Assembly (NCBI GenBank): GCA_026415135.1
Contig: JAOAHS010000033.1
Span: 1 to 32,852 of the forward strand
Source: Calditerrivibrio sp.
GTDB taxonomy: Bacteria > Chrysiogenota > Deferribacteres > Deferribacterales > Calditerrivibrionaceae
Direction: 5' to 3'
DNA length: 32,852 nucleotides
Made by a program: the position numbers and the translations under genes. Under the pieces are notes generated by a model that made no database searches, was not told the DNA's origin, and saw only the letters and a program-made list of their open reading frames with translations. Below are positions 27,940-32,797 of the stretch, in pieces (the first letter of the stretch is position 1; each line of letters begins with the position of its first letter).

Positions 27940-29380
27940 ACTCCACCCCTAAATTTTTTGCCACCTCTTCTCTATCATCGAAGTGGTATTTAGTTTTACC
28001 TATGATTTGATAATTTTCATGCCCTTTACCAGCAATCAAAACTATATCCCCTTCTTTTGCCTGCTTACATACTAATGATATAGCTTTTCTTCTATCCTCT
28101 TCTACAATGACATCCCCTTTTCTATTAAATCCAGCTAATATTTCACTGATGATCCCTTTCGGATCTTCTGTTCGGGGGTTATCACTTGTTACAACCACCA
28201 GGTCAGAAAATTCTTCAGCCACCTTAGCCATTCTTGGTCTTTTTGTTCTATCCCTATCACCACCACACCCAAAAACGGTTATAAGCCTATTTTTCTTAAA
28301 AGGTCTAAGGGCAGTAAGCACATTTCTAAGGGCATCATCAGTATGGGCATAATCTACAAAAAAATATACCCCATCCTTTGAAAATTTTTCAAGTCTGCCT
28401 GGAACATTCTTAAATTGGTTTATACCTTCTTTAATCACATCTATTGGTATTTGGGTAACATAGGTTGCCGTCACAGCAGCAAGTATATTTTCCAGATTAT
28501 GCCTACCCACAAGGGGAGAATCTACCTCGATTGCTCTATCACCTAACACTACCACACAACGTGTCCCTTCCAGAGAATAATTGACATTTTTAGCATAAAC
28601 ATCAGCTTTCAATGTTGAATAAGAGTGCTTCTCTATATCAACCTCTTCATAAAGCCTCTTTCCATATTCATGATCAATGTTAATACAACAACTTTTTGAA
28701 TACTGTTTTGTAAAAAGCTTTCTTTTAGCCTGATAATAGTCCTCCATAGTCTTGTGATAATCGAGATGATCCCCACTTAAGTTTGTAAAAACGGACACAT
28801 CAAAATTCAAACCAAATACCCTACCTTGATCCAATGCGTGGGAGGAAACCTCCATACAAACCGCATTACCACCCTTTGTTAGCCCTTGTCTAATCATGGA
28901 GAAAATATCATATATACCAGGTGTTGTATTAACTGCTTCGTACTTTTCATCCACAATACAATAGTCGGTAGTTCCAATTCGAACTGTTTTATAACCTGCT
29001 TTTCTTAGAATATTGTCTATTAGGTAATTGGTAGTAGTTTTACCATTAGTCCCTGTCACACCGAAAAGCTTTACTTTTCTAAAGTCTATATCAAAAAGAT
29101 TTCTACAGATAATCCCAAAAGCAGACCTACAATTTGACACCACCACACACGGTATCCCTTGTAATGGTATCTCAGAGATAAAAAATAATACTTTACCACT
29201 CCTATACAAATCATCCACCACTTTGTAAGGATCAAAGCTACTACCTTTTATCAATACAAAAACAGATTGTTCTTTTATATCGTTGGTATTAAAAGAGATA
29301 TCCATTACCTCTAATTCCAAAAGTTTAGTATCCGATATGGAACAATATTCCACACCGTTGAGTAGATATTTAGCTAACAT
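27926..29380 (-). CDS. murE: UDP-N-acetylmuramoyl-tripeptide synthetase MurE (meso-diaminopimelate-adding)
   Basis: MurE adds the third residue of the stem peptide. The 484-residue product has GTNGKTT at 110-116, NTTPG, EVSSHALDQGR, FTNLSGDHLDYH, DYAHTDDAL and the specificity motif DNPR at 400-403 (TSDNPRTEDP), which marks enzymes that use meso-diaminopimelate rather than lysine. This fits a Gram-negative wall. GAGGAT lies just before the ATG, which overlaps the end of ftsI by 11 bases. Confidence 0.97.
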   Translation of the reverse strand: MLAKYLLNGVEYCSISDTKLLELEVMDISFNTNDIKEQSVFVLIKGSSFDPYKVVDDLYRSGKVLFFISEIPLQGIPCVVVSNCRSAFGIICRNLFDIDFRKVKLFGVTGTNGKTTTNYLIDNILRKAGYKTVRIGTTDYCIVDEKYEAVNTTPGIYDIFSMIRQGLTKGGNAVCMEVSSHALDQGRVFGLNFDVSVFTNLSGDHLDYHKTMEDYYQAKRKLFTKQYSKSCCINIDHEYGKRLYEEVDIEKHSYSTLKADVYAKNVNYSLEGTRCVVVLGDRAIEVDSPLVGRHNLENILAAVTATYVTQIPIDVIKEGINQFKNVPGRLEKFSKDGVYFFVDYAHTDDALRNVLTALRPFKKNRLITVFGCGGDRDRTKRPRMAKVAEEFSDLVVVTSDNPRTEDPKGIISEILAGFNRKGDVIVEEDRRKAISLVCKQAKEGDIVLIAGKGHENYQIIGKTKYHFDDREEVAKNLGVEFEAH

Positions 29381-31034
29381 GCTTAATCCTCAGATGTTTG
29401 ATTTTATATCCCATAATAACTGCGATCTCCTCTGCAATTTTCTTAAAAGTCACAGCAGCAGTAGCTCCACCATAAATCGATTTTTTAGGGTTCTCATATA
29501 TCACAACCATTGAGATTTTCGGATCGTCATACGGGAAAAAACCAGCAAAACTTGCCACATACTCAGTATTAGAGTATTTCCCCAATTTTTTATCAAACTT
29601 TTGTGCTGTCCCTGTTTTACCAGCTATCGGGACATAAGTACTTTTTGCCGTAGTAGCTGTCCCTCTCTCCACAACGTCCCGTAATAATGGTTTAATGTCG
29701 TTTAGACTTTTTTCACTAAAGACCTTCACCGCCTGATTCTCTTTTTCATCCTTGTTAATGAACTTAGGTTTTACTAGATAACCACCATTAGCAATAGCGG
29801 CATACAGTCTAACTATCTGGATAGGTGTTACCAACAGTTCCTGACCTATGGATATAGATGGTTGGGAAAGCCCAGACCACTTTTTATAACTTCTTAAAAG
29901 TCCTTCCTCCTCACCACTACCAATAACCTTTGTACTATCCCCCAAACCCAACTTCTTAAGATACTCGTAGAAATCTTTTGGAGGTATACGGGAATTTAAT
30001 TTGATGGTACCTATATTACTAGATTTCACCAAAACATCTGCAGCAGTCAACTTACTGTAGGGGTGAACATCCTTTATTGTATGATTAAACATAGTCAATT
30101 TCCCATTTTCGCAATCAACCACCTCACCGAGATTCAACATCCCATTTTCAAGGAGATAGATAAATGTAAAAGGTTTCAATATAGACCCCGGCTCAAACAG
30201 GTAATACGTGGCATAGTTTTTCCAAAGTTCTTGATTGTATTTAGTATATCTATTAGCATCAAAACCTGGATATGTAACAGCAAAAAGTATCTCTCCAGTT
30301 TTAACATCCATACCAATAGCTATCCCTTTATCAGCACCAAATTCTTCTACTCCACTAATGAGGTTTAACTCTGCTGTTTTTTGCATATTTTTATCTATTG
30401 TTATATAAAATTCCCTTTCAGAAGCTGTTATCCCTTCTTTATCATGAAAAAGTATAAATTTACCTGTACTATCCTTCATAGCGATGATGGATATCTCCTC
30501 ACCTTTTAGCTCCTCATCATATATCTTCTCTATCCCATAAAGACCCTGATTATCAACACCCACAAAACCTAATATCTGGGAAAAAAGGTTGTGATAAGGG
30601 TAATATCTACCCTCATCCACAATGTAACCCACATATTTATATTTCTGAGCAAAACTCTCTGCTATTGCGATATCTACATCCCTTGACAACCATACAAATC
30701 CAGACTTAGCAAGTATTTTGTCTACTGTCTTCTTACTCAATTCAATACCAGCCTTTCTAAGCTCTGATATGATCTTTTTAGGATCATCCGCTTGCTTTGA
30801 AAATATATACATGGAAGCATATTTTTTATTTTTAGCTATTACCTCCCCATTTCGATCTTTAATAATTGCCCTATTCTGCATAATTGCAAACTCTTTGGAA
30901 GATTGATTTTGTGAAATATTTGAGTAAAATTCATATTTTATTATCTGGATATGTATTAGCTTCCAAATAACGCCGATTACAAACAAGAGCAAACAGACAT
31001 TAATAACCCGCAGTCTATTCTTTTCACTCCACAT
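29370..31034 (-). CDS. ftsI: Septal peptidoglycan transpeptidase FtsI (penicillin-binding protein 3)
   Basis: FtsI crosslinks septal peptidoglycan as partner of FtsW. The 554-residue product has one N-terminal membrane helix (about 10-28). A dimerisation or pedestal region opens with NRAIIKDRNGEVIAKN. The transpeptidase domain has the three active-site motifs SILK (S284-K287), SSN (338-340) and KTGT (473-476). There are no PASTA repeats, so it is the Gram-negative FtsI type rather than the SpoVD/PBP2x type. It lies between ftsL and murE with 11-base overlaps on both sides. Confidence 0.96.
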   Translation of the reverse strand: MWSEKNRLRVINVCLLLFVIGVIWKLIHIQIIKYEFYSNISQNQSSKEFAIMQNRAIIKDRNGEVIAKNKKYASMYIFSKQADDPKKIISELRKAGIELSKKTVDKILAKSGFVWLSRDVDIAIAESFAQKYKYVGYIVDEGRYYPYHNLFSQILGFVGVDNQGLYGIEKIYDEELKGEEISIIAMKDSTGKFILFHDKEGITASEREFYITIDKNMQKTAELNLISGVEEFGADKGIAIGMDVKTGEILFAVTYPGFDANRYTKYNQELWKNYATYYLFEPGSILKPFTFIYLLENGMLNLGEVVDCENGKLTMFNHTIKDVHPYSKLTAADVLVKSSNIGTIKLNSRIPPKDFYEYLKKLGLGDSTKVIGSGEEEGLLRSYKKWSGLSQPSISIGQELLVTPIQIVRLYAAIANGGYLVKPKFINKDEKENQAVKVFSEKSLNDIKPLLRDVVERGTATTAKSTYVPIAGKTGTAQKFDKKLGKYSNTEYVASFAGFFPYDDPKISMVVIYENPKKSIYGGATAAVTFKKIAEEIAVIMGYKIKHLRIKHVS

Positions 31035-31323
31035 AAAACACCCTTTCTGGCTTAGGTGGATAAAGATTTAAGTAAGCTGCATGCTTGAAAAGCTTTTCAG
31101 GCTGAACCAGCATATCCCTCTCTTCGACTATATTCTGCAGTTTGATCTTTTTAACCTCTATCTCCTGGGAAAGATTATATATTTCATAACCTATCTTCAC
31201 ACACTCCATCTTTATGGTAGCGATAAAGAACAGCAAAACAACTATCACCAACAGATGGATAATAAAAAAAATGTCTATTGTTATACTCAAAGGCTTAATC
31301 CGTGGCAGAGTAATATGTATCAT
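31024..31323 (-). CDS. ftsL: FtsL-like cell division protein
   Basis: This 99-residue protein has a short cytoplasmic N-terminus, one membrane helix (about residues 17-37), and a periplasmic heptad-like segment of about 30 residues (YEIYNLSQEIEVKKIKLQNIVEERDML) followed by a short tail. This is the FtsL architecture, a bitopic coiled-coil protein that joins FtsB and FtsQ to activate FtsW-FtsI. FtsL sequences are poorly conserved, so the call rests on topology and on its invariant place between rsmH and ftsI. It overlaps rsmH by 4 bases (ATGA). Confidence 0.85.
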   Translation of the reverse strand: MIHITLPRIKPLSITIDIFFIIHLLVIVVLLFFIATIKMECVKIGYEIYNLSQEIEVKKIKLQNIVEERDMLVQPEKLFKHAAYLNLYPPKPERVFYVE

Positions 31324-32258
31324 ACCCTTTCTCCAGCCCTGAGCTTTGCACTTCTGCTATATGGATTTTTTATTACCTCATCTTTCGAAGGTAAAACAGG
31401 CTTTTTGGTCAAAATCCTAAAGGTCTGTTTTTTCCCACAGGTGCAAATAGGCTGACCATGAGGACAGATACAGCTCTTGGAATAATGGGTAAAAAAGTCC
31501 TTCACAAGACGATCCTCCAATGAATGAAATGATATAAATACAGCCCTACCACCAATCACAATGAGCTTTTCCAGAGATTTTAACAAAGACTCTATGGCCT
31601 CCAATTCTTTATTTATAAAGATCCTTATGGCCTGAAATGTTCTCGTGGCAGGATTCATCCCTTTTTTCTGAAACCTCATAGGTATAGATTTAGCCACAAT
31701 TTCAGCAAGCTCTTTTGTTGTTTTTATCTTTTTTAAATTGCGATGCTTTACAATTTCGTATGCTATCTTTTTCGCAAAAGGATCCTCACCATATTTTTTT
31801 ATAATATTTTCTAAAGTTTGCTGCGGGAAACCATTTACAACATCATAGGCAGAAACCTCTATCCGTGGATCCATTCTCATGTCAAGGGGCTCATCAAACC
31901 TAAAAGAAAAACCTCTTCCAGTATTTGAAATCTGAAATATGGACACACCAAAATCTGCCAATATACCGTTTACTACAAGCCCTTTGGAAGACATGATATT
32001 ATACAAGTTAGCAAAATTTTCGTTAATTATCTCTACATTGTGTCTATCTTTGAACATATTTTGAAGTCTTTCACATGCCTCCGGATCCCTATCAAGTATA
32101 ATAAGCTTTCCATTAGGGATCTTCTCTAAAATAGCTGCAGAATGACCACCACCGCCACCAGTACAATCAACATAAATACCGCCATCCACAGGATTAAGAT
32201 ACCTCAACGTTTCAGTTAGCATCACAGGAATGTGTGAGATGGCTGCTTTTTTTGTCAT
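31320..32258 (-). CDS. rsmH: 16S rRNA (cytosine(1402)-N(4))-methyltransferase RsmH
   Basis: RsmH (MraW) methylates N4 of C1402 in the 16S rRNA decoding site using S-adenosylmethionine. The 312-residue product starts with SHIPVMLTETLRYL, has the SAM-binding DCTGGGGGHS (31-40), the GILADFGVS and GRGFSFRFDEPLDMRMD segments, NPATRTFQAIRIFINKEL and VFISFHSLEDRLVK, all standard for the family. AGAGGAAT lies before the ATG; the gene starts nine bases after mraZ. Confidence 0.97.
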   Translation of the reverse strand: MTKKAAISHIPVMLTETLRYLNPVDGGIYVDCTGGGGGHSAAILEKIPNGKLIILDRDPEACERLQNMFKDRHNVEIINENFANLYNIMSSKGLVVNGILADFGVSIFQISNTGRGFSFRFDEPLDMRMDPRIEVSAYDVVNGFPQQTLENIIKKYGEDPFAKKIAYEIVKHRNLKKIKTTKELAEIVAKSIPMRFQKKGMNPATRTFQAIRIFINKELEAIESLLKSLEKLIVIGGRAVFISFHSLEDRLVKDFFTHYSKSCICPHGQPICTCGKKQTFRILTKKPVLPSKDEVIKNPYSRSAKLRAGERV

Positions 32259-32267
32259 TTATTCCTC

Positions 32268-32735
32268 TTACAAATTTATTTCTGGAAACTTCGAACTTAG
32301 CTCAGTAAAAAGTTCCTCCACGACGATTTTTTCGTATTTTTCCTCCCATTTCTCTTTTGGCCAGATCTCAATTTTATTTCTAAGACCTATAATTACACAT
32401 TCATTTTTCAGACCTACACTCTCTCTCAAATGCGGTGGAATAAGGATCCTACCCTGCTTATCAACAGAACAATCCTCAGCAGTAGAGTATAAATACCTCA
32501 AGAACTCATTAACCTTTGGATCGTTTGGCCTTTCTTTATCCCAGATCTCTTCTAACCTATTCCACTCTTGATATGGATAGGCCACGATATGGCTTCCCAA
32601 TGTTACGAGGATAAGGGACTCATCGTTGTACTTGGCTTTTAATATATCCCTGAATTTAGCAGGGATACTAACCCTACCAGCATCGTTGATACTGTGATAA
32701 CTTTTGCCTTTAAAGCTTAGAAATTGGCTTCCCAT
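32268..32735 (-). CDS. mraZ: Transcriptional regulator MraZ
   Basis: MraZ forms ring-shaped oligomers and represses its own operon by binding short direct repeats upstream of it. The 155-residue product has two SpoVT/AbrB-type half domains, each with the DxxGR motif: NDAGRVSIPAKFR at about 17-29 and DKQGRILIPPHLR at about 94-106. The N-terminus is six or seven residues longer than the common MF(R/K)G start. The ATG is preceded by GAGG with only one base between, an unusually tight spacing, but no other start is available in frame. It heads the dcw cluster behind the promoter at 32768-32797. Confidence 0.96.
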   Translation of the reverse strand: MGSQFLSFKGKSYHSINDAGRVSIPAKFRDILKAKYNDESLILVTLGSHIVAYPYQEWNRLEEIWDKERPNDPKVNEFLRYLYSTAEDCSVDKQGRILIPPHLRESVGLKNECVIIGLRNKIEIWPKEKWEEKYEKIVVEELFTELSSKFPEINL

Positions 32736-32780
32736 ACCTCATACCATTTTATGACATTTTATGCCAAATTATACACACTA
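32731..32780 (-). promoter_or_regulatory. Tandem 10-base repeats upstream of mraZ, candidate MraZ operator
   Basis: Read on the minus strand, consecutive decamers are TAGTGTGTAT (32780-32771), AATTTGGCAT (32770-32761), AAAATGTCAT (32760-32751), AAAATGGTAT (32750-32741) and GAGGTATGGG (32740-32731). The first four share the pattern NANNTG(G/T)(T/C)AT in exact 10-base register, one helical turn per unit. MraZ is known to bind direct repeats of about 10-base period upstream of its own gene. The units match the AAAGTG(T/G)-type box described in Mollicutes better than the TGGG box of E. coli. The array overlaps the -10 box and the start of the transcript, as expected for repression. Confidence 0.75.
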
Positions 32781-32797
32781 AACCCATAATATGTCAA
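32768..32797 (-). promoter_or_regulatory. Sigma70 promoter of the dcw cluster
   Basis: On the minus strand a perfect TTGACA (32797-32792) and a perfect TATAAT (32773-32768) are separated by 18 bases. Transcription would start near 32761, about 25 bases before the mraZ ATG. It is the only clear promoter for the cluster in this window. The remaining bases to the window end (32798-32852) are AT-rich with no gene visible. Confidence 0.85.

Follow-up and report, generated by a model that had tools for sequence, protein, structure and literature searches.

In many bacteria the division and cell-wall (dcw) cluster is headed by MraZ. Described MraZ operator sites were found in the literature for E. 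coli and for the Mollicutes, the reference for the Mollicute site reportedly being Fisunov et al. 2016. A passage of PMC8475190 traces the name and the binding of the E. coli MraZ box to Eraso et al. 2014, and the method used here finds a period-10 GTGG array, TCAGTGGGAA ATTGTGGGGC AAAGTGGGAA, upstream of E. coli K-12 mraZ (L179). The Mollicute site is given as (AAAGTGKN3)3 in passages of PMC5282649 and PMC8475190, the latter of which states that it occurs a single time in the M. genitalium chromosome. The open-access full-text literature yielded no recognized treatment of the Deferribacterota MraZ operator or of MraZ residue 13 (E. coli numbering, used throughout), which is not a claim that these are absent from print.

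The window analyzed here is a whole contig of 32,852 nt from a Calditerrivibrio genome. Its first dcw gene is mraZ (32268-32735, minus strand, 155 aa), and the contig ends 117 nt before it. The gene is followed by rsmH (mraW; 31320-32258, minus strand; Pfam PF01795, E = 1.2e-107), a 99-aa ORF in the place of ftsL that has no Pfam match, and a gene for an ftsI-like penicillin-binding protein (29370-31034, minus strand; PF00905 and PF03717), which we take to be the usual dcw order. The closest named relatives are Calditerrivibrio sp. W28 and C. nitroreducens ZAV-05, of the lineage Deferribacterota, and a scan of a collection of named genomes gave only two close loci and one partial locus.

The MraZ protein of the window matches Pfam PF02381 in two stretches (E = 1.3e-26) and TIGR00242 with E = 3.8e-26 and 92 bits, the latter being below the model cut-off of 98.35 bits. 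The loop arginines R21 and R96 are both present and are invariant in 12 aligned sequences. The first loop reads N17-D-A19-G-R21 and has no Lys of the kind seen in D-x-K-G-R, a description of the loop that comes from the alignment made here and is neither part of the Pfam definition nor a published criterion. By alignment, Ala19 (codon 32679-32681, minus strand) occupies the position of E. coli Lys13. A structure model of the protein (pLDDT 90.6) places Ala19 in the beta-hairpin loop 17-20, between strands 10-16 and 21-23. The model matches five MraZ structure entries with Z scores of 18.9-20.0, the next row having a Z of 4.5, and among these are the cryo-EM entries 9sz7 and 9r4j, which by their titles contain M. 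genitalium MraZ with promoter DNA, a 4-box promoter in the title of 9sz7.

The predicted mraZ promoter has a -35 hexamer TTGACA (32792-32797, minus strand) and a -10 hexamer TATAAT (32768-32773, minus strand) separated by an 18-nt spacer, and the perfect consensus promoter of the preliminary description holds, with 12 of 12 bases matching. Relatives have TTGAC at a similar distance from the array. The array itself overlaps this predicted dcw promoter, since its first box, AATTTGGCAT (32761-32770, minus strand), covers the last three bases of the -10 hexamer. It continues in register with AAAATGTCAT (32751-32760, minus strand) and AAAATGGTAT (32741-32750, minus strand), and the mraZ ATG follows at 32735. 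In the other direction, the slot that overlaps the -10 hexamer, TAGTGTGTAT (32771-32780, minus strand), is degenerate, with GT instead of TG at positions 5-6, and is not a box, while the next slot, ATTATGGGTT (32781-32790, minus strand), is a box-like unit with TGG in register inside the promoter spacer; this TGG lies at the same distance from the -35 hexamer in three other Calditerrivibrio genomes. Four decamers of the pattern NANNTG(G/T)(T/C)AT had been described from 32780 to 32741. Three of them (32770-32741) fit the pattern and the fourth, at 32780-32771, does not, so that the "four sites" are better read as three contiguous 10-base direct repeats upstream of mraZ plus one in-register unit beyond a degenerate slot. 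A or T precedes TG in all four window units, and none of them has a GTGG or GTGK core.

Like the E. coli operator, the window has tandem TG-core decamers upstream of mraZ, with rsmH as the next gene. The E. coli units have G before TG and a TGG core throughout, and its MraZ has Lys13, whereas the window units have A or T before TG, TGG or TGT, and mostly YAT after it, and its MraZ has Ala at residue 13. The Mollicute site and the window share at least three decamers, A-rich sequence before the core, G or T after TG, and rarity, with one chromosomal occurrence and one exact genome match, respectively. They differ in the core, which is GTG(G/T) in Mollicutes and (A/T)TG(G/T) in the window, and in the loop, which is LDNKNR with a Lys in M. 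genitalium and NDAGR here. The closeness to the Mollicute box AAAGTG(T/G) that had been proposed is thus half right, because the Mollicute site as it is given in passages of PMC5282649 and PMC8475190 has G before TG. With its AAAGTG[T/G] site and its loop Lys, the Mollicute system obeys the relation between Lys13 and G at box position 4 (G4) that is described below. The structure entries 9sz7 and 9r4j resemble the window in fold (Z 18.9, rmsd 2.5-2.8 over 138-139 residues) and in having a box-repeat operator; they differ in sequence (21% identity) and in box layout, the window's fourth unit being separated from its three contiguous boxes by a degenerate slot. Only by analogy with these two entries, which are known here by title, might several subunits of an MraZ ring occupy the array.

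For comparison, "Deferribacterota" denotes the 44 usable genomes of the 47 (G000-G046) in the class of the source genome; G019, with no MraZ N-terminus at a contig start, and G043 and G044, with no MraZ match, were left out. Three genomes of family f10, in the same phylum and outside the class (G047, G048, G049), also gave no MraZ match, and mraZ may therefore be absent from them. The outgroup derives from about 158 genomes with a match, from which 118 regions in 116 genomes were taken by coordinates (118 of 119, L134 having no start candidate). Seven further outgroup loci came from a separate search and 30 from a renewed search of 33 genomes, G106 being left out; sister genomes from the orders of G177 and G107 and the class of G089 (1, 1 and 3) added almost nothing. 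The mraZ starts were picked automatically and may be off in some outgroups. The combined set of 264 loci excludes exact duplicates and the poorly alignable or truncated G053, L252, L238 and L247.

Arrays of period 10 are widespread upstream of mraZ. With an array defined as at least three TG[GT] among five slots of period 10 within 130 nt of the start, they are found at 194 of the 264 loci, compared with 3-11 at periods 7-9 and 11-14. In 80 of the 118 outgroup regions there are TG[GT] runs of at least three units at period 10, and at most 3 regions have them at periods 7-9 and 11-14. Runs of at least three [AT]TG[GTA] at period 10 occur in 29 of 51 upstream regions (the 44 Deferribacterota and 7 others), with none at periods 6-9 or 11-14 and five at period 15. 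The conservation in relatives on which the preliminary description depended is borne out, since 33 of the 44 Deferribacterota have an array by the fixed definition. Of the 11 genomes without one, three belong to genus g14 and are described below; contig ends truncate the region in G040 and G042, the arrays of G007, G020 and G028 are interrupted, G012 shows two in-register units, and G045 and G046 have ATGAC/ATGG-like units.

In genus g14 (L038, L031 and L028, which are G025, G027 and G036), mraZ is preceded at about 200-390 nt by the promoter and array-like units. TTGAC lies at -284, -393 and -290 in G025, G027 and G036, with 2, 4 and 3 in-register [AT]TG[GT] units behind it, implying a long 5' leader of mraZ; in the fourth genome of the genus the region is truncated by a contig end. 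Family f5 (L025, L048 and L050-L055, with G007, G020 and G028) has arrays with broken slots, for example TTTGGCAT AAATTGTACG ATAATGTCAT CAATAGGTAC AAATTGG in L051, and this recurring alternation of filled and degenerate slots may be relevant to ring binding.

The position of the array is set relative to the promoter. Measured from the start of TTGAC, the first unit detected is 29-31 nt away in 27 of the 33 Deferribacterota with arrays. For the four Calditerrivibrio genomes the unit met first is that in the spacer, at 11 nt, with the first downstream slot at 31, where the window has the TGG of TTTGG and the other three the TGC of TTTGC. The distance deviates in G023 (47) and in G024 (20, with the next unit at 30). 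The distance from the array to the start codon varies widely in Deferribacterota and the spacing from the -35 hexamer is nearly fixed, so the array goes with the promoter and not with the reading frame.

The Deferribacterota box differs from that of other bacteria in the base before TG. When the decamers are aligned by their TG, 80% of the 288 outgroup units carry G at position 4, against 2% of the 112 units from Deferribacterota, which have A (55%) or T (41%) instead. The lineage-specific box of the preliminary description is right in this respect, as the G before TG is missing in the window and kept in most outgroup units. Position 7 is looser too, being T in 61% of Deferribacterota units versus 11% of outgroup units, and positions 9-10 favor AT in Deferribacterota (A 0.77, T 0.78). 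The same division runs through the protein: all 75 outgroup sequences with G-type arrays have Lys at column 13, compared with 0 of 36 Deferribacterota, and across the 44 Deferribacterota genomes residue 13 is never Lys (0/44), being Ala, Thr, Ser, Asn or Val instead.

Among the 264 loci, those with Lys13 have a G-type array in 118 cases, a non-G array in 11, a tie in 6 and no array in 46, and the 83 loci without Lys13 have a G-type array in none, a non-G array in 58, a tie in 1 and no array in 24. In terms of the 194 arrays, 118 of 135 are G-type with Lys13 and 0 of 59 without it. Lys13 does not force G, because 11 Lys13 loci are mostly not G and six are ties. After filtering at 85% identity, which preceded both the column-information and the correlation analyses, column 13 accounts for 0.517 of the 0.86 bits of box state and the next column for 0.135 (148 sequences below 85% identity). 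Among 14,160 correlations between residues and bases, that of residue 13 with position 4 ranks first (r = 0.81). For position 7 (G/T) the best correlations are with Cys at 108 (0.41), Asp at 54 (0.38) and Lys13 (-0.37).

The array is very probably an MraZ operator. Our main reading, to which we assign a probability of roughly 0.78, is that it is a self-repressing MraZ operator that was recoded along with the loss of Lys13, and that Lys13 most likely reads G4. An MraZ multimer would bind successive decamers with one hairpin per decamer, one helical turn apart. Bound just downstream of the -10 hexamer and partly over it, MraZ would exclude RNA polymerase from the -10 hexamer and the start site, and by this exclusion it would repress its own dcw operon, as judged from MraZ proteins that have been studied. 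The box base covaries with a single loop residue, from which we infer a direct contact of Lys13 with the G at position 4 or with its base pair. With Lys13 lost from the N-terminal hairpin loop (Ala19 here), this G would go unrecognized and A or T could take its place at position 4, so that the Deferribacterota box would have been recoded from GTGG to (A/T)TG(G/T) alongside the Lys13 loss. The change at position 4 and the coupled loss of Lys13 in Deferribacterota are new here and suggest a simple rule for how MraZ reads DNA. Prediction of the operator from the MraZ sequence would then become possible, and a search based on GTGG or AAAGTGK would overlook it throughout the Deferribacterota class.

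The link between Lys13 and the base may instead be indirect, if the approach of the hairpin or the geometry of the ring has changed and other residues contact the base. More of the loop has changed than residue 13, because residue 11 also differs: most sequences have Asp there, whereas most Deferribacterota and the order of G120 have Asn, Ser or Thr, and this change accompanies YAT at box positions 8-10. The frequency of YAT there is 0.04 with Asp11 and Lys13 (111 loci), 0.53 with Lys13 and a residue 11 other than Asp (24 loci), 0.21 with Asp11 and no Lys13 (17 loci) and 0.64 with neither (42 loci). Position 4 nonetheless follows residue 13 alone, whatever residue 11 is, the frequency of G4 being 0.82 and 0.87 with Lys13 (Asp11 and non-Asp11, respectively) and 0.08 and 0.05 without it, and we regard an indirect link as unlikely. 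Residue 11 and box positions 8-10 may be a second letter of the code. Their link is a lead only, because few clades carry it, 22 of the 24 loci with Lys13 and no Asp11 forming one clade, and L141 and L151 are visible counterexamples to it.

The Lys13-G4 link also recurs beyond the Deferribacterota. In the order of G120, families f189-f192 have a T-(D/E)-K-G-R loop with Lys13 and mostly GTGG boxes (e.g., AAAGTGGCAT), and f81 and f194 have Thr13 and mostly (A/T)TGG boxes (e.g., ATTATGGCAT, ATAATGGCAG, AAATTGGCAT), with a G unit present in some of these arrays; mixed boxes occur in two members with Lys, L202 and L210. The eight genomes of family f22, in the class of G209, carry Ala, Thr or Val as residue 13, and the six of their loci that have arrays are mostly not G. 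In the rest of this class, 22 newly fetched loci have Lys (16), Arg (5) or Gly (1) at this position, and of the ten Lys loci with arrays eight are G-type and two are not (L264, L272). Four of the five Arg13 loci in the class of G209 have no array, and the array of L275 is non-G. Non-G arrays in single genomes go with Asn (L125), Ser (L235) and Gln (L226). In a quick MraZ tree with the loop columns excluded, there are at least 9 changes of residue 13 and 16 of the box. Supported branches give three independent pairs, which change the same way in 2.9 of 3 cases on average and the contrary way in none; these are too few for significance (sign test, p = 0.25). All branches of the tree give nine pairs, and an earlier tree with fewer loci gave three supported pairs and six on all branches. 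The tree sets G005 and G023 apart from the other Deferribacterota and places L226 among the Deferribacterota, so the number of switch events is uncertain. A broader reading, toward which we lean slightly, is a modular one-loop code in which Lys13 reads G4 and residue 11 influences box positions 8-10, the Deferribacterota and several other lineages having independently lost Lys13 while regulators and operators co-evolved into incompatible types.

It is also conceivable that the operator is real and that A or T at position 4 merely comes from AT-rich genomes, the loss of Lys13 being a coincidence of lineage. The upstream regions of Deferribacterota are mostly AT-rich, the largest block without Lys13 is one class, and the supported independent pairs are few. 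Base composition is not the reason for the change at position 4, however. In four bins of rising upstream GC (<0.30, 0.30-0.36, 0.36-0.45 and >0.45), loci with Lys13 have a mean G4 of 0.79, 0.79, 0.79 and 0.80 (23, 36, 35 and 41 loci), and those without it 0.05, 0.04, 0.09 and 0.08 (29, 21, 5 and only 4 loci); G is mostly kept with Lys13 even in the most AT-rich regions and is rare without it in the most GC-rich. Column 13 is also the best predictor outside the Deferribacterota, with r = 0.68 compared with 0.46 for the next (131 rows, 14 of them non-Lys13) and a mean G4 of 0.80 with Lys13 versus 0.13 without. A coincidence of lineage and composition is quite unlikely on these figures.

The repeats may be bound by a regulator other than MraZ, since a repeat alone names no protein, and in Mollicutes HsdC has similar TG repeats, spaced one base differently, according to a passage of PMC5282649. 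The array precedes mraZ itself at 194 of 264 loci, however, a period-10 GTGG array likewise stands before E. coli K-12 mraZ, and the box base varies together with a residue of MraZ, all of which make another regulator very improbable.

A chance period-10 run of TG in AT-rich DNA is already refuted by conservation: exact period-10 arrays are found in 33 of 44 Deferribacterota, and 194 of 264 loci have arrays at that period, other periods giving 3-11. When the 129-nt region is shuffled with its dinucleotides preserved, a period-10 run of at least three [AT]TG[GT] units arises in 271 of 20,000 shuffles (about 1.4%), and one of at least three bare TG in 1,417 of 20,000. Taken by itself, the array of the window is modestly unusual and no more than suggestive, and it is convincing because it is conserved across loci.

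Across the 1.98-Mb genome, mraZ is the only place where the three-unit pattern matches exactly, and no site matches it with a single mismatch. With up to two mismatches the pattern has 9 matches, compared with 10 for a reversed control. These 9 are the exact match, a shifted overlap of it, and seven matches with two mismatches. No further target in the genome is supported, because the remaining matches are an overlap or have two mismatches and are at the level of the control.

Some minor observations concern unusual loci. L140 (G094) encodes an MraZ with Asn13 and has a different 10-base repeat upstream, with a GGTGA-like core. Two genomes have two mraZ genes each, L068 and L078 in G222 and L138 and L170 in G144, and one copy in G222 has Arg13 (DARDR) and a mixed ATGG/GTGG array. 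The pattern matches also exposed two repeated elements, one in G011:C1 (TTATGATATTATGTGATAATATGTATT), with many exact copies listed, and another in G001:C1, with three copies.
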